From Rhizobium sp. NLR16a (GTDB taxonomy: Bacteria; Pseudomonadota; Alphaproteobacteria; Rhizobiales; Rhizobiaceae): a stretch of 64,000 nucleotides of DNA. Below, in pieces: positions 14,330 through 60,192 of this stretch. Position numbers and translations under genes: made by a program. The stretch lies in NCBI RefSeq assembly GCF_017948245.1, contig NZ_CP072865.1, positions 62,001 through 126,000 of the forward strand, in the 5' to 3' direction. Position 1 is the first letter of the stretch. Every line of letters begins with the position of its first letter. The notes under the pieces are model-generated. The model ran no database searches. It was not told where the DNA came from and saw nothing but the letters and a program-made list of their open reading frames with translations.

Positions 14330-15022
14330 ATGCTGTCGGAGACCGATATGGCGGAGGAGGAACCGGCAAGTTCGCCTGTGGCACTTGCACTTGCCCGCAA
14401 GCACGCAAGCTTCATCATCGCCGCTGTTGCTGGACTGGTGGTCTTCTTGGCTGTCACCTCGCGGGAGGTCAGCGCCGGCAATATCCTGTTCGGCTGGAAT
14501 ATCAGCGCCATTGTTTTTGTCGCGCTCAGCTGGCGCAAGATGCTGCGGGCGACGGTCGAAACGATCCGGAAACGCTCCGCCGATCTCGATTTTTCGGATA
14601 CCGTTTTGCTGTCCCTTTCGATCGGCGCTGCGCTTGCGAGCATCGCCGGCATCGGCACCGAGCTTCATTCGATCAAGGAGGCGCCACCTGACGTCGCGCT
14701 GACGCGGGCGGGTGCCGCGGTGCTGACGATCCTGATCTCCTGGATTTTTCTGCATACGCTTTTCACCATCCACTATGCCCATTACTTTTATGGCGGGGCG
14801 GACGAAGAGAGCGGCCTCAAATTTCCCGACGGAATCGAAGAGCCCGGCTATTGGGACTTCCTCTATTTCTCCTTCACCATCGGCGTTGCCGCGCAGACCG
14901 CGGATGTCGGGGTCAGTTCGACCAGCATGCGCAAGCTAACATTGCTGCATGCCGTGCTGTCGTTCCTGTTCAACACGACGATCCTGGCGCTGGCGATCAA
15001 TGTCGGCGCAAGCCTGCTTTAA
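14330..15022 (+). CDS. DUF1345-family membrane protein
   Basis: A 230-residue integral membrane protein with about five hydrophobic segments and a conserved YWDFLYFSFTIG motif in the second half, typical of DUF1345. No function is known. ATG 14330 or ATG 14348 could be the start; neither has a strong ribosome site. Its last four bases overlap the stop of the convergent anti-sigma gene. Confidence 0.72.
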   Translation: MLSETDMAEEEPASSPVALALARKHASFIIAAVAGLVVFLAVTSREVSAGNILFGWNISAIVFVALSWRKMLRATVETIRKRSADLDFSDTVLLSLSIGAALASIAGIGTELHSIKEAPPDVALTRAGAAVLTILISWIFLHTLFTIHYAHYFYGGADEESGLKFPDGIEEPGYWDFLYFSFTIGVAAQTADVGVSSTSMRKLTLLHAVLSFLFNTTILALAINVGASLL

Positions 15023-15816
15023 CCCCTTGCCGCCTTCCTGAAGAGCGCCTCGAACTCGGCCAGATCGCCGGCGGCGACATCTGAAATCGCTGAGAAAACG
15101 AGCCCGCCATCCGACCATTGCTCCATATTGTAGCCGTCATGCACGGCTGTCGTCTCTGCGGCCGATCCTGCGGGCCAAACGAACAGGTTGATGACATGGC
15201 CGTGGCGCCGATAGACGAGGGCCGCAACGGCGCGACCACCGAGATAGTCGACCCGCCCGCCGATCAGTGGAAAGCCGTCCTTGGATAGGTCGCTGACCGG
15301 CGGTGAAAAATCGAGCTTGCCGTTGAACCACGGTTTTACCGTATGCTGATCCGAGGTCAGCACGTCGGTCAGATGGTCGGCCATCATCGACCTGATATGG
15401 CTTGAAAGGATCTGTTCCTGCAGAAGCGCGGTCTGAGACGGTGCGTTGACGAACAGGAAGGCGCCGACCGCCAATGCCGCGAGTGAAGGAACGAAGCTCC
15501 ATTGCCGGAAGAAAACCAGGGCGCGGCGCCATCCGGCCACCCGGAGTGGCAACGGCAGGCCGGATGTTGTCGCCTGTTCAAACGACAGCATCGACAGGAC
15601 ATGTGAACGCAGCGCTTCGGGCGGCCGCCATTTGACGCCATCTTGATCGATGATCTCTCTCACGGCCTGAACCCTTTCCACCTCCGCTCTGCAATCCGTA
15701 CAGGCAGCAAGATGATCCTCGAATTGTGCCGCGTGGTCTGAATCGAGTTCGCCATCGACAAAGCCATGCAGCATGACACGCCATTCCGGGCAGCCTTTTT
15801 GGTGCGTGTCGCTCAT
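15019..15816 (-). CDS. Zinc-binding anti-sigma factor
   Basis: A 265-residue membrane protein expected to hold the adjacent ECF sigma factor inactive. The cytoplasmic N-terminal domain has the H-x3-C-x2-C zinc motif (HLAACTDC, about residues 35-42), a single membrane span lies near residues 115-132, and a periplasmic domain follows. ATG 15816 overlaps the sigma factor TGA (ATGA), so the two are made together. The periplasmic part may sense envelope or redox stress (inferred). Confidence 0.82.
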   Translation of the reverse strand: MSDTHQKGCPEWRVMLHGFVDGELDSDHAAQFEDHLAACTDCRAEVERVQAVREIIDQDGVKWRPPEALRSHVLSMLSFEQATTSGLPLPLRVAGWRRALVFFRQWSFVPSLAALAVGAFLFVNAPSQTALLQEQILSSHIRSMMADHLTDVLTSDQHTVKPWFNGKLDFSPPVSDLSKDGFPLIGGRVDYLGGRAVAALVYRRHGHVINLFVWPAGSAAETTAVHDGYNMEQWSDGGLVFSAISDVAAGDLAEFEALFRKAARG

Positions 15817-16553
15817 CCTGCAATCTCGCCTTTGTCGCATGCGTGCCAGGCTTCACCAAATTCATGCCGCGCCCTTGCAAGCCTCGACATGACAGTGCCG
15901 ATCGGCGCGTCGATGATTTCGGCGATCTGCCGGTAGGAGAGATCCTCAAGCTCCCGCAAGACGAGGATTTCCCGCATTGCCTCGGGGAGCCGACTAATGA
16001 CAGCGCGCACGCGCTGCTGTTCACTTCGCCGGATCGTCGCCGCCTCTGGCGAATCCTCCTCCGAGGCGATCTCGTTCTCACCTGTTTCATCGTCGTCGCC
16101 ATCACTCAGATGCCGCTCGAACCGCGCCTTGCGGCGATCCTGCTGGCGCCAGGCATGGCAACAGTTTCTCACGATGGCAAAGAGCCAGGCGCGCGGATCG
16201 CCACCGCGATAGCTATCGAAGTTGCGGAAGGCACGCAGGACTGCATCCTGGACGATATCTTGCGCCGCATCCGCGTCGCGGCTGAGGAAGCGGGCAAAAT
16301 TATAGGCAGCGTCAAGGTGCGGAACGATCAAGTTCTGAAAGCGCTGCATGAGTTCACGCTGCGCGCTCACATCGGCCGCCGAAGCAACCTGCTCGCCGCT
16401 CGACTTTTCCGAGACCATAGGGTGGAACAACCGCGCTGCGCTGTCGAGAAGCAAGGCCAGCGGCGATGGTCGAAGACGGTCCTTCCAATGTCGCCACGCC
16501 AACGGCAACCACTCGTTTGATCCGATGGGATTGGTGATCTGAGCGTCTGTCAT
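15813..16553 (-). CDS. ECF RNA polymerase sigma factor
   Basis: An extracytoplasmic-function sigma factor of about 246 residues. Region 2 has AAYNFARFLSRDADAAQDIV followed by WLFAIVRNCCHAW, and region 4 has LSYRQIAEIIDAPIGTVMSR. About 50 extra residues precede region 2. ATG 16553 follows GGGGAGG; ATG 16556 and an upstream in-frame start are alternatives. It is divergent from a metallo-hydrolase / TPR / DoxX operon, its likely target. The 303-base gap to that operon shows no clear -35/-10 pair and no credible gene. Confidence 0.88.
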   Translation of the reverse strand: MTDAQITNPIGSNEWLPLAWRHWKDRLRPSPLALLLDSAARLFHPMVSEKSSGEQVASAADVSAQRELMQRFQNLIVPHLDAAYNFARFLSRDADAAQDIVQDAVLRAFRNFDSYRGGDPRAWLFAIVRNCCHAWRQQDRRKARFERHLSDGDDDETGENEIASEEDSPEAATIRRSEQQRVRAVISRLPEAMREILVLRELEDLSYRQIAEIIDAPIGTVMSRLARARHEFGEAWHACDKGEIAG

Positions 16554-16856
16554 CATCCTCCCCTGCCTCAATAGTAGCCGAATTTAAAAGCGAGATCCTC
16601 AGGCATGGAGTGCGGTCCCTTGCCGTCTAGACCGACCGGCACGCGGTTTTATTCCAACCGAAGCCAATTTATTGGCACGCGGCCGGACAGCCGGCCGGGG
16701 CGATAGAAATGACGATGTCTTTTCAAGCGCTTGAACAAACGACGCTCGAGATCGGGAATAAGCGCGTCCGGCTGGCGATCTAGTTCATCAGCGAGGGAAT
16801 CCGAATAATTGCGGTCTTCGCCAGCTGAAATCTCATCGACAAGAGGAGGCATATCC

Positions 16857-30015: not shown

Positions 30016-30765
30016 TCAATGCGCGCCTTCGCGTTTCCGCTTGCGGGCGTTGCGTGCGAACATGTTCAGCACCTCGACCAGTGCGGAGAAGGCCATGGCG
30101 GCGTAGACGTAACCCTTCGGCACATGGAAACCCATGCCTTCGGCGATCAGCGTCGTACCGATCATCAGCAGGAAGGCGAGCGCCAGCATGACGATCGTTG
30201 GATTCTTCTCGATGAAGTTGGCGAGCGGGGTCGCGGCAACCAGCATGACGGTGACGGCGGCGATGACGGCGATCACCATGATCGGCAGATGCGGCGTCAT
30301 GCCGACGGCGGTGATGATGCTATCGACGGAGAAGACCAGGTCAAGCAGCAGGATCTGGCCGATGGCCGATGCAAAACCCGTGGTGGCGGACTTCGCGATG
30401 AAATCCTCCTGATGATCCACCGGGTCGACCGTGTGGTGAATTTCCTTGGTGGCTTTCCAGACGAGGAACAGGCCGCCGGCGATCAGGATCAGATCCTTCC
30501 AGGAGAAGCCGTGCCCGAAGGCCGTAAACAGCGGTTCGGTCAGCTGTACGATCCAGGCTACGGTGCCGAGCAGCGCCAGGCGCATGACCAGGGCAAGGCC
30601 GATGCCGATCCGGCGGGCTTTCTCGCGATGCTCGGACGGCAGTTTGTTGGTGAGAATGGAAATGAAGATCAGGTTGTCGATACCGAGAACGACTTCCATC
30701 ACCACCAGTGTGATGAGCGCCACCCAGGCGGCCGGGTCCTGAATGAGCGTCATGATTTCCTGCAT
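30016..30765 (-). CDS. TerC-family membrane protein
   Basis: A 249-residue integral membrane protein with about seven hydrophobic spans. The acidic membrane motifs [11 protein letters not shown] and [12 protein letters not shown] are diagnostic of TerC. Family members export or handle metal ions, notably manganese (Alx/MntX type). ATG 30765 is preceded by AAGGGG 10 bases upstream, and that site falls inside a long inverted repeat. See the leader entry. Confidence 0.88.
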
Positions 30766-30847
30766 TAGCTTATATCCCCTTGCGTCACCGATGACGCCCG
30801 CAATGTAGTGTCCGCGGCCTGCTGCACAAGCGCCGCAAGGGGATATA
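30766..30847 (-). promoter_or_regulatory. Candidate switching leader RNA of terC
   Basis: TATATCCCCTTGCG at 30771-30784 and CGCAAGGGGATATA at 30834-30847 form a perfect 14-bp stem around 49 bases. The 3' arm in the RNA holds the AAGGGG ribosome site. Two local hairpins compete for the same bases: GCGTCA/TGACGC (30782-30797, 4-base loop) and GCGGC/GCCGC (30814-30836). Thus one fold hides and the other frees the ribosome site. It sits between the AraC stop and the TerC ATG. I do not recognise the yybP-ykoY core. Confidence 0.6.
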
Positions 30848-30864
30848 CGAAATCGATGTGACTT

Positions 30865-31704
30865 TTATTCCCTGACAGGTAGCCAGATTTCAGTGACGCC
30901 CATCCCGGTATAGGGATCGAAGCGTTCGTCGTAACGTTCGAACATGTCGGGCGTCTCGCCGTGTTCCAGGCCAGACGTTGGCCACCATACGCCGAAAATT
31001 CGGTTCATGGTCGAGGAAATGCCGGAGACATGGCCGCGATGGGTGAAGACAGCGTAGCGTTGGCCCGGAAGCCTGAGCGTCGTAAAATCCGGCGGAAGGT
31101 CGCTGGCATCGGAGATCTCGACGCCGGCCATATAGCGATACTTCTCCGCTTCGCCATCGATATGGGTGCAGACGCCGTAGGCGACATTGCCTTTTTGGCC
31201 TGCAACATGACCGAAATGGGCGTTGAATTTCTGCCAGAGAGAGGGGATGGCGGCGTTACCGCCATAGGGATAGGTCTCCTGCAGGCCGGCAAGGAGCATC
31301 GGTTGACGCTTTTCGAAGCGGGGCGGTTCGAGGGCGTTGAGGTGGGCGGGGTCCATTCTGATCGGCTCCAGCAAGACAAGATTGCGGGCGTGCCCCTGTC
31401 TGCGCACCGCATCCGGCGTCATGCCGAACTGGTCGCGGAAGGCACGGGTGAAAGCCTCGTGCGAGCCGTAGCCCGCGCAAAGCGCAACCTCGAGAATGGT
31501 GGATGAGCCGCCGACCAGCGCGGGCACGGCGCGGCTGAGGCGCCGCCCCCTGATATAGCTGCTGATCGAGTGGCCGGTGACGAGCCCGAAGACGCGTGAC
31601 AGATGATAGCGTGACAATCCGGCGGCTTCCGATATCTCTTCCAGCGATATATCGCTCTCGAAATGGCTCTCTATAAACCAGATCGCCCTTGCGACGGCGC
31701 TCAT
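30865..31704 (-). CDS. AraC-family regulator with GyrI-like effector domain
   Basis: A 279-residue protein with an N-terminal AraC double helix-turn-helix (residues 1-100; SLEEISEAAGLSRYHLSRVF) and a C-terminal GyrI-like small-molecule-binding domain (about 125-279). This is the Rob/SoxS-like architecture used in multidrug and antibiotic response. It runs toward terC with a 99-base gap, but there is no evidence that it controls terC. Confidence 0.85.
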   Translation of the reverse strand: MSAVARAIWFIESHFESDISLEEISEAAGLSRYHLSRVFGLVTGHSISSYIRGRRLSRAVPALVGGSSTILEVALCAGYGSHEAFTRAFRDQFGMTPDAVRRQGHARNLVLLEPIRMDPAHLNALEPPRFEKRQPMLLAGLQETYPYGGNAAIPSLWQKFNAHFGHVAGQKGNVAYGVCTHIDGEAEKYRYMAGVEISDASDLPPDFTTLRLPGQRYAVFTHRGHVSGISSTMNRIFGVWWPTSGLEHGETPDMFERYDERFDPYTGMGVTEIWLPVRE

Positions 31705-59743: not shown

Positions 59744-60192
59744 TCGCTTGATTATGAAGGCGAATATTCTTATCTCACCAGTCAGCCCAAAGTCGCACGT
59801 GCCCATGGGTGTCCGCCGAACCCTCGAATTGGTGAGGAAATCGGTAAGGTACCTGGAATTAACCCCTCCAGTCGCTATTCCGGCCAACCGGAAAATGCGA
59901 GGACGCCTGAAGCAACGACGGTGCGGGCCTTTTTGTTCTCTCCCTGCTTTCCATCAGCGGGGGTTACTGAAGAGGCACACCATCATTGCCGGAAGTGCGG
60001 TTGGGACTCTCCCTCCAATCCATGGCAGACAAAGCCGAACTTACACCGCGTTTGCGGCGTTGGTTCATTATCCGCGCATCGAGCGCTTGCTGTGGTTCCG
60101 GGGTCTCCACCGGCTGGTTCCAATGCGAGTTCTCGTATGCCCTTTGTCCTCCGGATCATGCCGGAGCTCTGGAACTGGAAGAGGGAACTGAT
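59744..60192 (+). promoter_or_regulatory. Long leader of ornithine decarboxylase, speF-motif candidate
   Basis: About 450 bases with no credible gene lie before the ATG at 60193. Hairpins seen: TTCCGG-ccaa-CCGGAA (59878-59893) and CTCCGG-atcatg-CCGGAG (60149-60166), the latter 27 bases before the ATG. A 12-codon uORF starts at ATG 60158 (MPELWNWKRELI); its TGA at 60194-60196 overlaps the decarboxylase ATG. A conserved speF RNA motif is known upstream of such genes in alphaproteobacteria; that this is it is inferred from position, not matched in sequence. Confidence 0.5.

Follow-up and report, generated by a model that had tools for sequence, protein, structure and literature searches.

A predicted ECF sigma factor promoter and an inverted repeat over the ribosome-binding site at terC of Rhizobium: a candidate two-promoter regulon

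The yybP-ykoY manganese riboswitch (Rfam RF00080) precedes terC-type genes and can hide the ribosome-binding site. The closest documented case to the locus described here would be gene e (lysozyme) of phage T4. The passages of PMC3014915 on this gene, and on soc, 49 and I-TevI, describe long RNAs started upstream that form a stem hiding the ribosome site. The two late promoters that immediately precede gene e give RNAs without the 5' part of the stem, and in relatives of T4 a promoter lies inside the 5' strand of the stem (same passages). On the side of transcription, the relevant systems are the ECF26 sigma factors of S. meliloti (RpoE1, RpoE3, RpoE4 and RpoE6), which according to the passages of PMC6180224 on these factors use promoters with GGAATA at -35 and GT at -10 and have an anti-sigma gene downstream. 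RpoE1 and RpoE3 have small target sets, and RpoE1 activates its own operon whereas RpoE3 does not (same passages).

We analysed the leader of a terC gene in a stretch of 64 kb (hereafter the window). The features of the locus are the following:

30016..30765, minus strand: terC gene, 249 aa (Pfam TerC PF03741, E 1.7e-50)
30776..30781, minus strand: Shine-Dalgarno sequence AAGGGG, ten bases 5' of the terC ATG at 30765
30771..30784, minus strand: 3' arm of the inverted repeat, CGCAAGGGGATATA, which contains the ribosome site
30782..30797, minus strand: small hairpin GCGTCA-UCGG-UGACGC of 6 pairs, directly 5' of the ribosome site and near the inferred P2 start
30802..30807, minus strand: -10 element of the candidate promoter P2, TACATT (pattern CTTG-N19-TAnAT)
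30825..30830, minus strand: -35 element of P2, CTTGTG, whose CTTG is invariant in 95 leaders
30836-30814, minus strand: second hairpin, 5 pairs
30836..30837, minus strand: inferred transcription start of the candidate promoter P1, 7-8 nt after CGTATA
30834..30847, minus strand: 5' arm of the inverted repeat, TATATCCCCTTGCG
30844..30849, minus strand: -10 element of P1, CGTATA, with its TATA forming the outermost bases of the 5' arm
30864..30871, minus strand: -35 element of P1, GGAATAAA, sharing bases with the stop codon of the AraC-type gene upstream
30865..31704, minus strand: upstream AraC/GyrI-like regulator gene (Pfam HTH_18, GyrI-like), same strand as terC

The 14-bp inverted repeat with the AAGGGG ribosome site is as the original prediction described it, the two arms being perfectly complementary. 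The two hairpins are also confirmed, and each has three bases in common with the arms. The whole arrangement belongs to the minus strand, which the prediction did not mention. Four perfect inverted repeats with arms of 14 bp or more (loop of 3-60) occur in the window and none in any of 20 first-order resamplings, so the one at terC is more than chance, although there are three others in the window (8970/8994, 40897/40920 and 55919/55957). The minus strand of 30860-30740 folds with a z-score of -3.8, and none of 200 shuffles was as good. The region around the repeat is mainly promoter DNA: two promoter-like elements overlap the arms or sit between them.

P1 reads GGAATAAA-N14-CGTATA (30871-30844), and the 5' arm overlaps its -10 element. 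We compared the locus with 80 named loci, the top-ranking ones among 589 confirmed matches, and with 148 genomes of the same genus for which the bases upstream of terC were available; a TerC match is present in all 148. P1 stands at terC in 102 of these genomes (exactly in 100, with one mismatch in two), a count that relatedness inflates, as it does every count given here, because P1 at terC shows a single state change on a tree of 33 genomes and the species are therefore non-independent witnesses. The other 46 terC leaders have 5 to 7 mismatches to P1, i.e., they lack it. In 82 distinct stretches the mean identity is 0.997 for the -35 element and 1.0 for the -10 element, versus 0.72 for the spacer of P1. 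There are exactly two sites of the motif in the 6.6-Mb source genome, where a control with the pattern read backward gave none, and the 148 genomes have two sites (92 genomes), one (11) or none (45), and never more. The control pattern gave two matches in total over the same genomes. P1 agrees with the S. meliloti ECF26 consensus (PMC6180224, passages on these promoters) in having GGAATA and GT at the conserved spacing, and CGTATA is a particular form of the -10 element relative to this consensus. Broadening the motif gave 14 further matches in the source genome versus 12 in the control, another widening gave 3 versus 16, and we do not claim further targets because such matches are near or below the control. 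A looser motif, searched across the family, was likewise near background in the 243 genomes outside the genus (36 matches versus 27 in the control). A scan of the locus for E. coli-type promoters called neither P1 nor P2.

The second P1 site of the source genome ends 7 nt 5' of the ATG of an ECF sigma gene (G000:C3:46714-47250). This gene heads a row of three: sigma, putative anti-sigma and Bax1-I. Its product has the sigma2 and sigma4 domains of ECF factors (Pfam Sigma70_r2 and r4_2) and matches NCBIfam NF009164 with 300 bits for a cut-off of 185. All 148 genomes match the sigma protein at E ≤ 1e-35, one of them (G127) in two separate pieces. CGTATA lies exactly 7 nt before the ATG in all 53 sigma-promoter stretches that we collected (from 50 genomes, three of which were seen twice), and these stretches have no mismatch to the whole P1 motif in 37 cases, one in 14 and two in 2. 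Among the 20 sigma promoters read first, most came from genomes whose terC is without P1. The three genes, all on the same strand, stand in this order in every one of 33 neighbourhoods. The putative anti-sigma protein (255 aa) has no Pfam match, a weak match to the NCBIfam anti-sigmaE family far below its cut-off, and one modest hydrophobic stretch. Judging from these sequences, P1 is very probably the promoter of this dedicated ECF sigma factor, which would read P1 at terC and would drive its own sigma, anti-sigma and Bax1-I row from the same sequence. Among the papers listed by our literature search we found no report of terC under an ECF sigma factor.

Some features of the sigma neighbourhoods may be mentioned in passing. 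The conserved gap of 7 nt between the -10 element and the ATG (e.g., L113:1494-1528, minus strand) suggests a leaderless sigma-factor mRNA. Genes for a CueR-type regulator and a copper-type P-ATPase adjoin the sigma gene (in the source genome L321:5748-8714, contig G000:C3) in 12 of 19 neighbourhoods from genomes with P1 at terC and in 0 of 14 from genomes without it. A link to copper is a lead at most, since this difference is inseparable from shared descent, P1 having changed only once on the tree. In the source genome, Rfam matches to a plasmid copy-control antisense RNA and an S-element (L321:427-580, G000:C3) lie within a few kb of the sigma operon, which thus seems to be on a plasmid near replication genes. 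Rfam searches of five sigma-operon neighbourhoods matched no leader family near Bax1-I, and only the plasmid copy-control RNAs in one of them.

The second promoter-like element, P2 (CTTG-N19-TAnAT, 30830-30802), is found between the arms of all 148 leaders, always with the same spacing; the control, made of resampled leaders and a broader pattern, gave a mean of 0.75 in 148. It resembles the query used for rhizobial sigma-70 promoters in S. meliloti, CTTGAC-N17-CTATAT (as quoted from PMC2573895), but is one base shorter and has three different hexamer bases in the window. P2 would then be a housekeeping promoter of the sigma-70 type.

The position of the transcription starts matters for the role of the repeat. 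Two ECF26-type starts, printed in lower case in Table 1 of PMC6180224, follow the -10 hexamer by 8 and 7 nt, and the other starts of that table range over about 5-10 nt if the last letter of each entry is the start. The gap of 7 nt before the sigma ATG would fit a leaderless start at +8. From the ECF26 starts together with this fixed gap, we place the P1 start at 30837 or 30836. Of the 14 bases that make up the 5' arm, RNA from P1 would keep 4 or 3, and RNA from P2, with an inferred start near 30797-30794, would keep none. It is thus likely that the 5' arm is not transcribed from P1 or P2. The original prediction had seen in the leader a stem hiding the ribosome site as well as a switch between two exclusive folds. 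The stem is real, and its arms are complementary across relatives, but the idea that one leader RNA changes between the two folds is not supported: since the 5' arm lies at and 5' of both inferred starts, such a switch could operate only in RNA begun further upstream.

We computed how exposed the ribosome site would be in the different RNAs. In the window, its predicted probability of being unpaired is 0.00 in read-through RNA, 0.54 in RNAs started at P1 (starts 5 to 9 nt after its -10 element) and 0.50-0.53 in RNA started at P2. Over 100 distinct leaders with P1 the mean predicted exposure is 0.157 for read-through RNA, 0.531 for P1 RNA and 0.529 for P2 RNA, and it rises to 0.419 in read-through RNA when the 5' arm is shuffled. 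The prediction is less clear-cut in 24 of these 100 leaders, where read-through exposure is at least 0.2. The arm of a leader hides the site better than the differing arm of another species in 73 of 95 cases (means of 0.150 versus 0.186). Some folding is also predicted in 45 distinct leaders without P1 (exposure of 0.308 in read-through RNA and 0.426 in P2 RNA). A possible source of read-through is the upstream AraC-type gene, which in the window ends inside the -35 element of P1; there are no terminator-like sites in 30700-31000. terC follows directly on a same-strand ORF of 150 codons or more in 20 of 22 named loci that have P1 and in 44 of 57 that lack it (79 of the 80 named loci, one being left out).

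These elements can be combined in one mechanism. The 5' arm would lie over the -10 element of P1 and over the bases immediately preceding its start. RNAs from P1 and P2 would leave the ribosome site usable because nearly all of the 5' arm is missing from them, whereas RNA coming from the upstream gene would have both arms, fold, and be poorly translated. We lean slightly towards this reading as a whole, i.e., that an ECF and a sigma-70-type promoter drive terC, that the inverted repeat blocks translation of read-through RNA, and that the leader is not a metal riboswitch. Taken separately, the insulation against read-through, which the folding calculations suggest, has in our view even chances. 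More tentative, and somewhat short of even, is a fuller version: a minimal regulon of two promoters, one at the sigma factor's own Bax1-I operon and one at terC elsewhere in the genome, combined with an insulator in the manner of T4, so that TerC would be made only from its own promoters and hardly from read-through RNA, and TerC and a Bax1-I membrane protein would answer together to a single signal of envelope or metal stress.

An unlikely alternative is that P1 and P2 are real and that the repeat has no role as RNA, the 5' arm being conserved as DNA, for instance as a promoter flank or because a protein binds it together with the 3' arm. Conserved inverted sites around P2 could indeed be operators. 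The core of the arm (columns 9-16 of alignment A1, which comprises 95 distinct leaders among the 102 with P1) has a mean identity of 0.98, compared with 0.65 for the P2 spacer and 0.72 for the P1 spacer. This conservation could be related to the promoters, because the arm sits between two promoter elements and is 2-4 bases from the -35 element of P2 in 87 of the 95 leaders. Against this explanation, the distance is 16-32 bases in the other eight leaders (L218, L232, L235, L236 and L247-L250, some of which have extra CTTG words), and the bases that follow the sigma gene's own P1 differ from those that follow P1 at terC. The word CGCAAGGGGATAT has three exact copies in the source genome, two of which are the arms (the third is at L356); together with nine copies that have one mismatch, these are in excess of the four matches in the control. 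The arms form on average 11.2 of 14 pairs, versus 9.0 when shuffled and 10.96 when swapped between species (76 distinct arm pairs), and none of 5000 permutations reached the observed mean, in a test that does not control for relatedness; in 30 of the 76 pairs of arms, no run of contiguous pairs is longer than 6. Yet covariation, which the original prediction had proposed as a check on the stems, was close to the shuffled level and convincing neither for the long stem nor for either hairpin. In A1 the long stem is 89.0% paired versus 88.6% in shuffles (2 of 500 as high), has two-sided changes at 2 of its 14 pairs (9 cells versus 5.2 in shuffles, 17 of 500 as high), and scores 0.066 for covariation versus 0.062 (27 of 500 as high). 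The hairpin at 30797-30782 is paired in 92.2% of cells over the 95 leaders versus 91.3% in shuffles, with one two-sided change, and the hairpin at 30836-30814 gives no better result than a control shifted by 3 columns. RNAalifold did not return the long stem from the leader alignment.

The leader could instead be a regulated RNA switch, in which P1 would start further upstream and its RNA would contain the whole stem, opened by a signal, a small RNA or temperature. RNA that contains both arms forms a very stable stem, and the folds exclude each other through the bases that they share. We nonetheless find this quite improbable given the two ECF26-type starts at 7 and 8 nt (PMC6180224, Table 1), the gap before the sigma ATG that is the same in 53 of 53 stretches and would fit a start at +8, the little covariation, and the lack of an Rfam match to the leader. 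It is extremely improbable that the leader belongs to the yybP-ykoY family or to another described leader family. TerC genes often have such leaders, and the relatives that NCBIfam calls R_switched_YkoY and R_switched_YjbE were matched below their cut-offs. Yet at E ≤ 10 the sole Rfam match in 30600-31000 was to sul1 (E 7, below its threshold), inside terC, and at gathering thresholds nothing in the window matched at the terC leader, the only matches being to ar45 and speF, far away. With no Rfam riboswitch match, a metal-responsive element is not supported, and the phrase for a separately named "terC" RNA motif was absent from the papers listed by our literature search.

If terC is insulated as we propose, the likeness to gene e of T4 (passages of PMC3014915 cited above) would lie in a ribosome site that is hidden in the long RNA and, by folding prediction, freer in RNA from proximal promoters. 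The differences are that terC is a bacterial chromosomal gene with an ECF and a sigma-70-type promoter, that read-through would come from a neighbouring gene, and that the effect here is predicted only. The likeness to the ECF26 regulons, as far as the cited passages of PMC6180224 describe them, covers the -35 and -10 consensus, a putative anti-sigma gene downstream, and few predicted targets with the own operon among them. This locus differs from them in its CGTATA form of the -10 element, in its predicted targets (the own Bax1-I operon and terC), and in a sigma RNA that is apparently leaderless. It differs from yybP-ykoY leaders in giving no covariance-model match and in having a stem that straddles promoters.

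What had been guessed to be a metal riboswitch thus becomes a testable regulon of one sigma factor and two predicted promoters, the one at terC being shared by the 102 genomes with P1. It would tie TerC, a metal and secretion protein, to a Bax1-I protein under one predicted signal. In Bacillus, TerC proteins work with the secretion machinery and FtsH is needed in their absence (statements in PMC10550928); such a role would fit an envelope or secretion stress signal and proves nothing here. If the insulation is true, not every stable stem that covers a ribosome site is a riboswitch, and overlapping promoters should be looked for first.

The window has a second ECF sigma gene (15813-16571, minus strand) with a zf-HC2 anti-sigma-like gene (15019-15840, minus strand). 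It is preceded by a weak P1-like site at 16655-16628 with two mismatches in the -10 element, which is not above background. At 59785-60096 on the plus strand, Rfam places a speF leader immediately after the alphaproteobacterial sRNA ar45.
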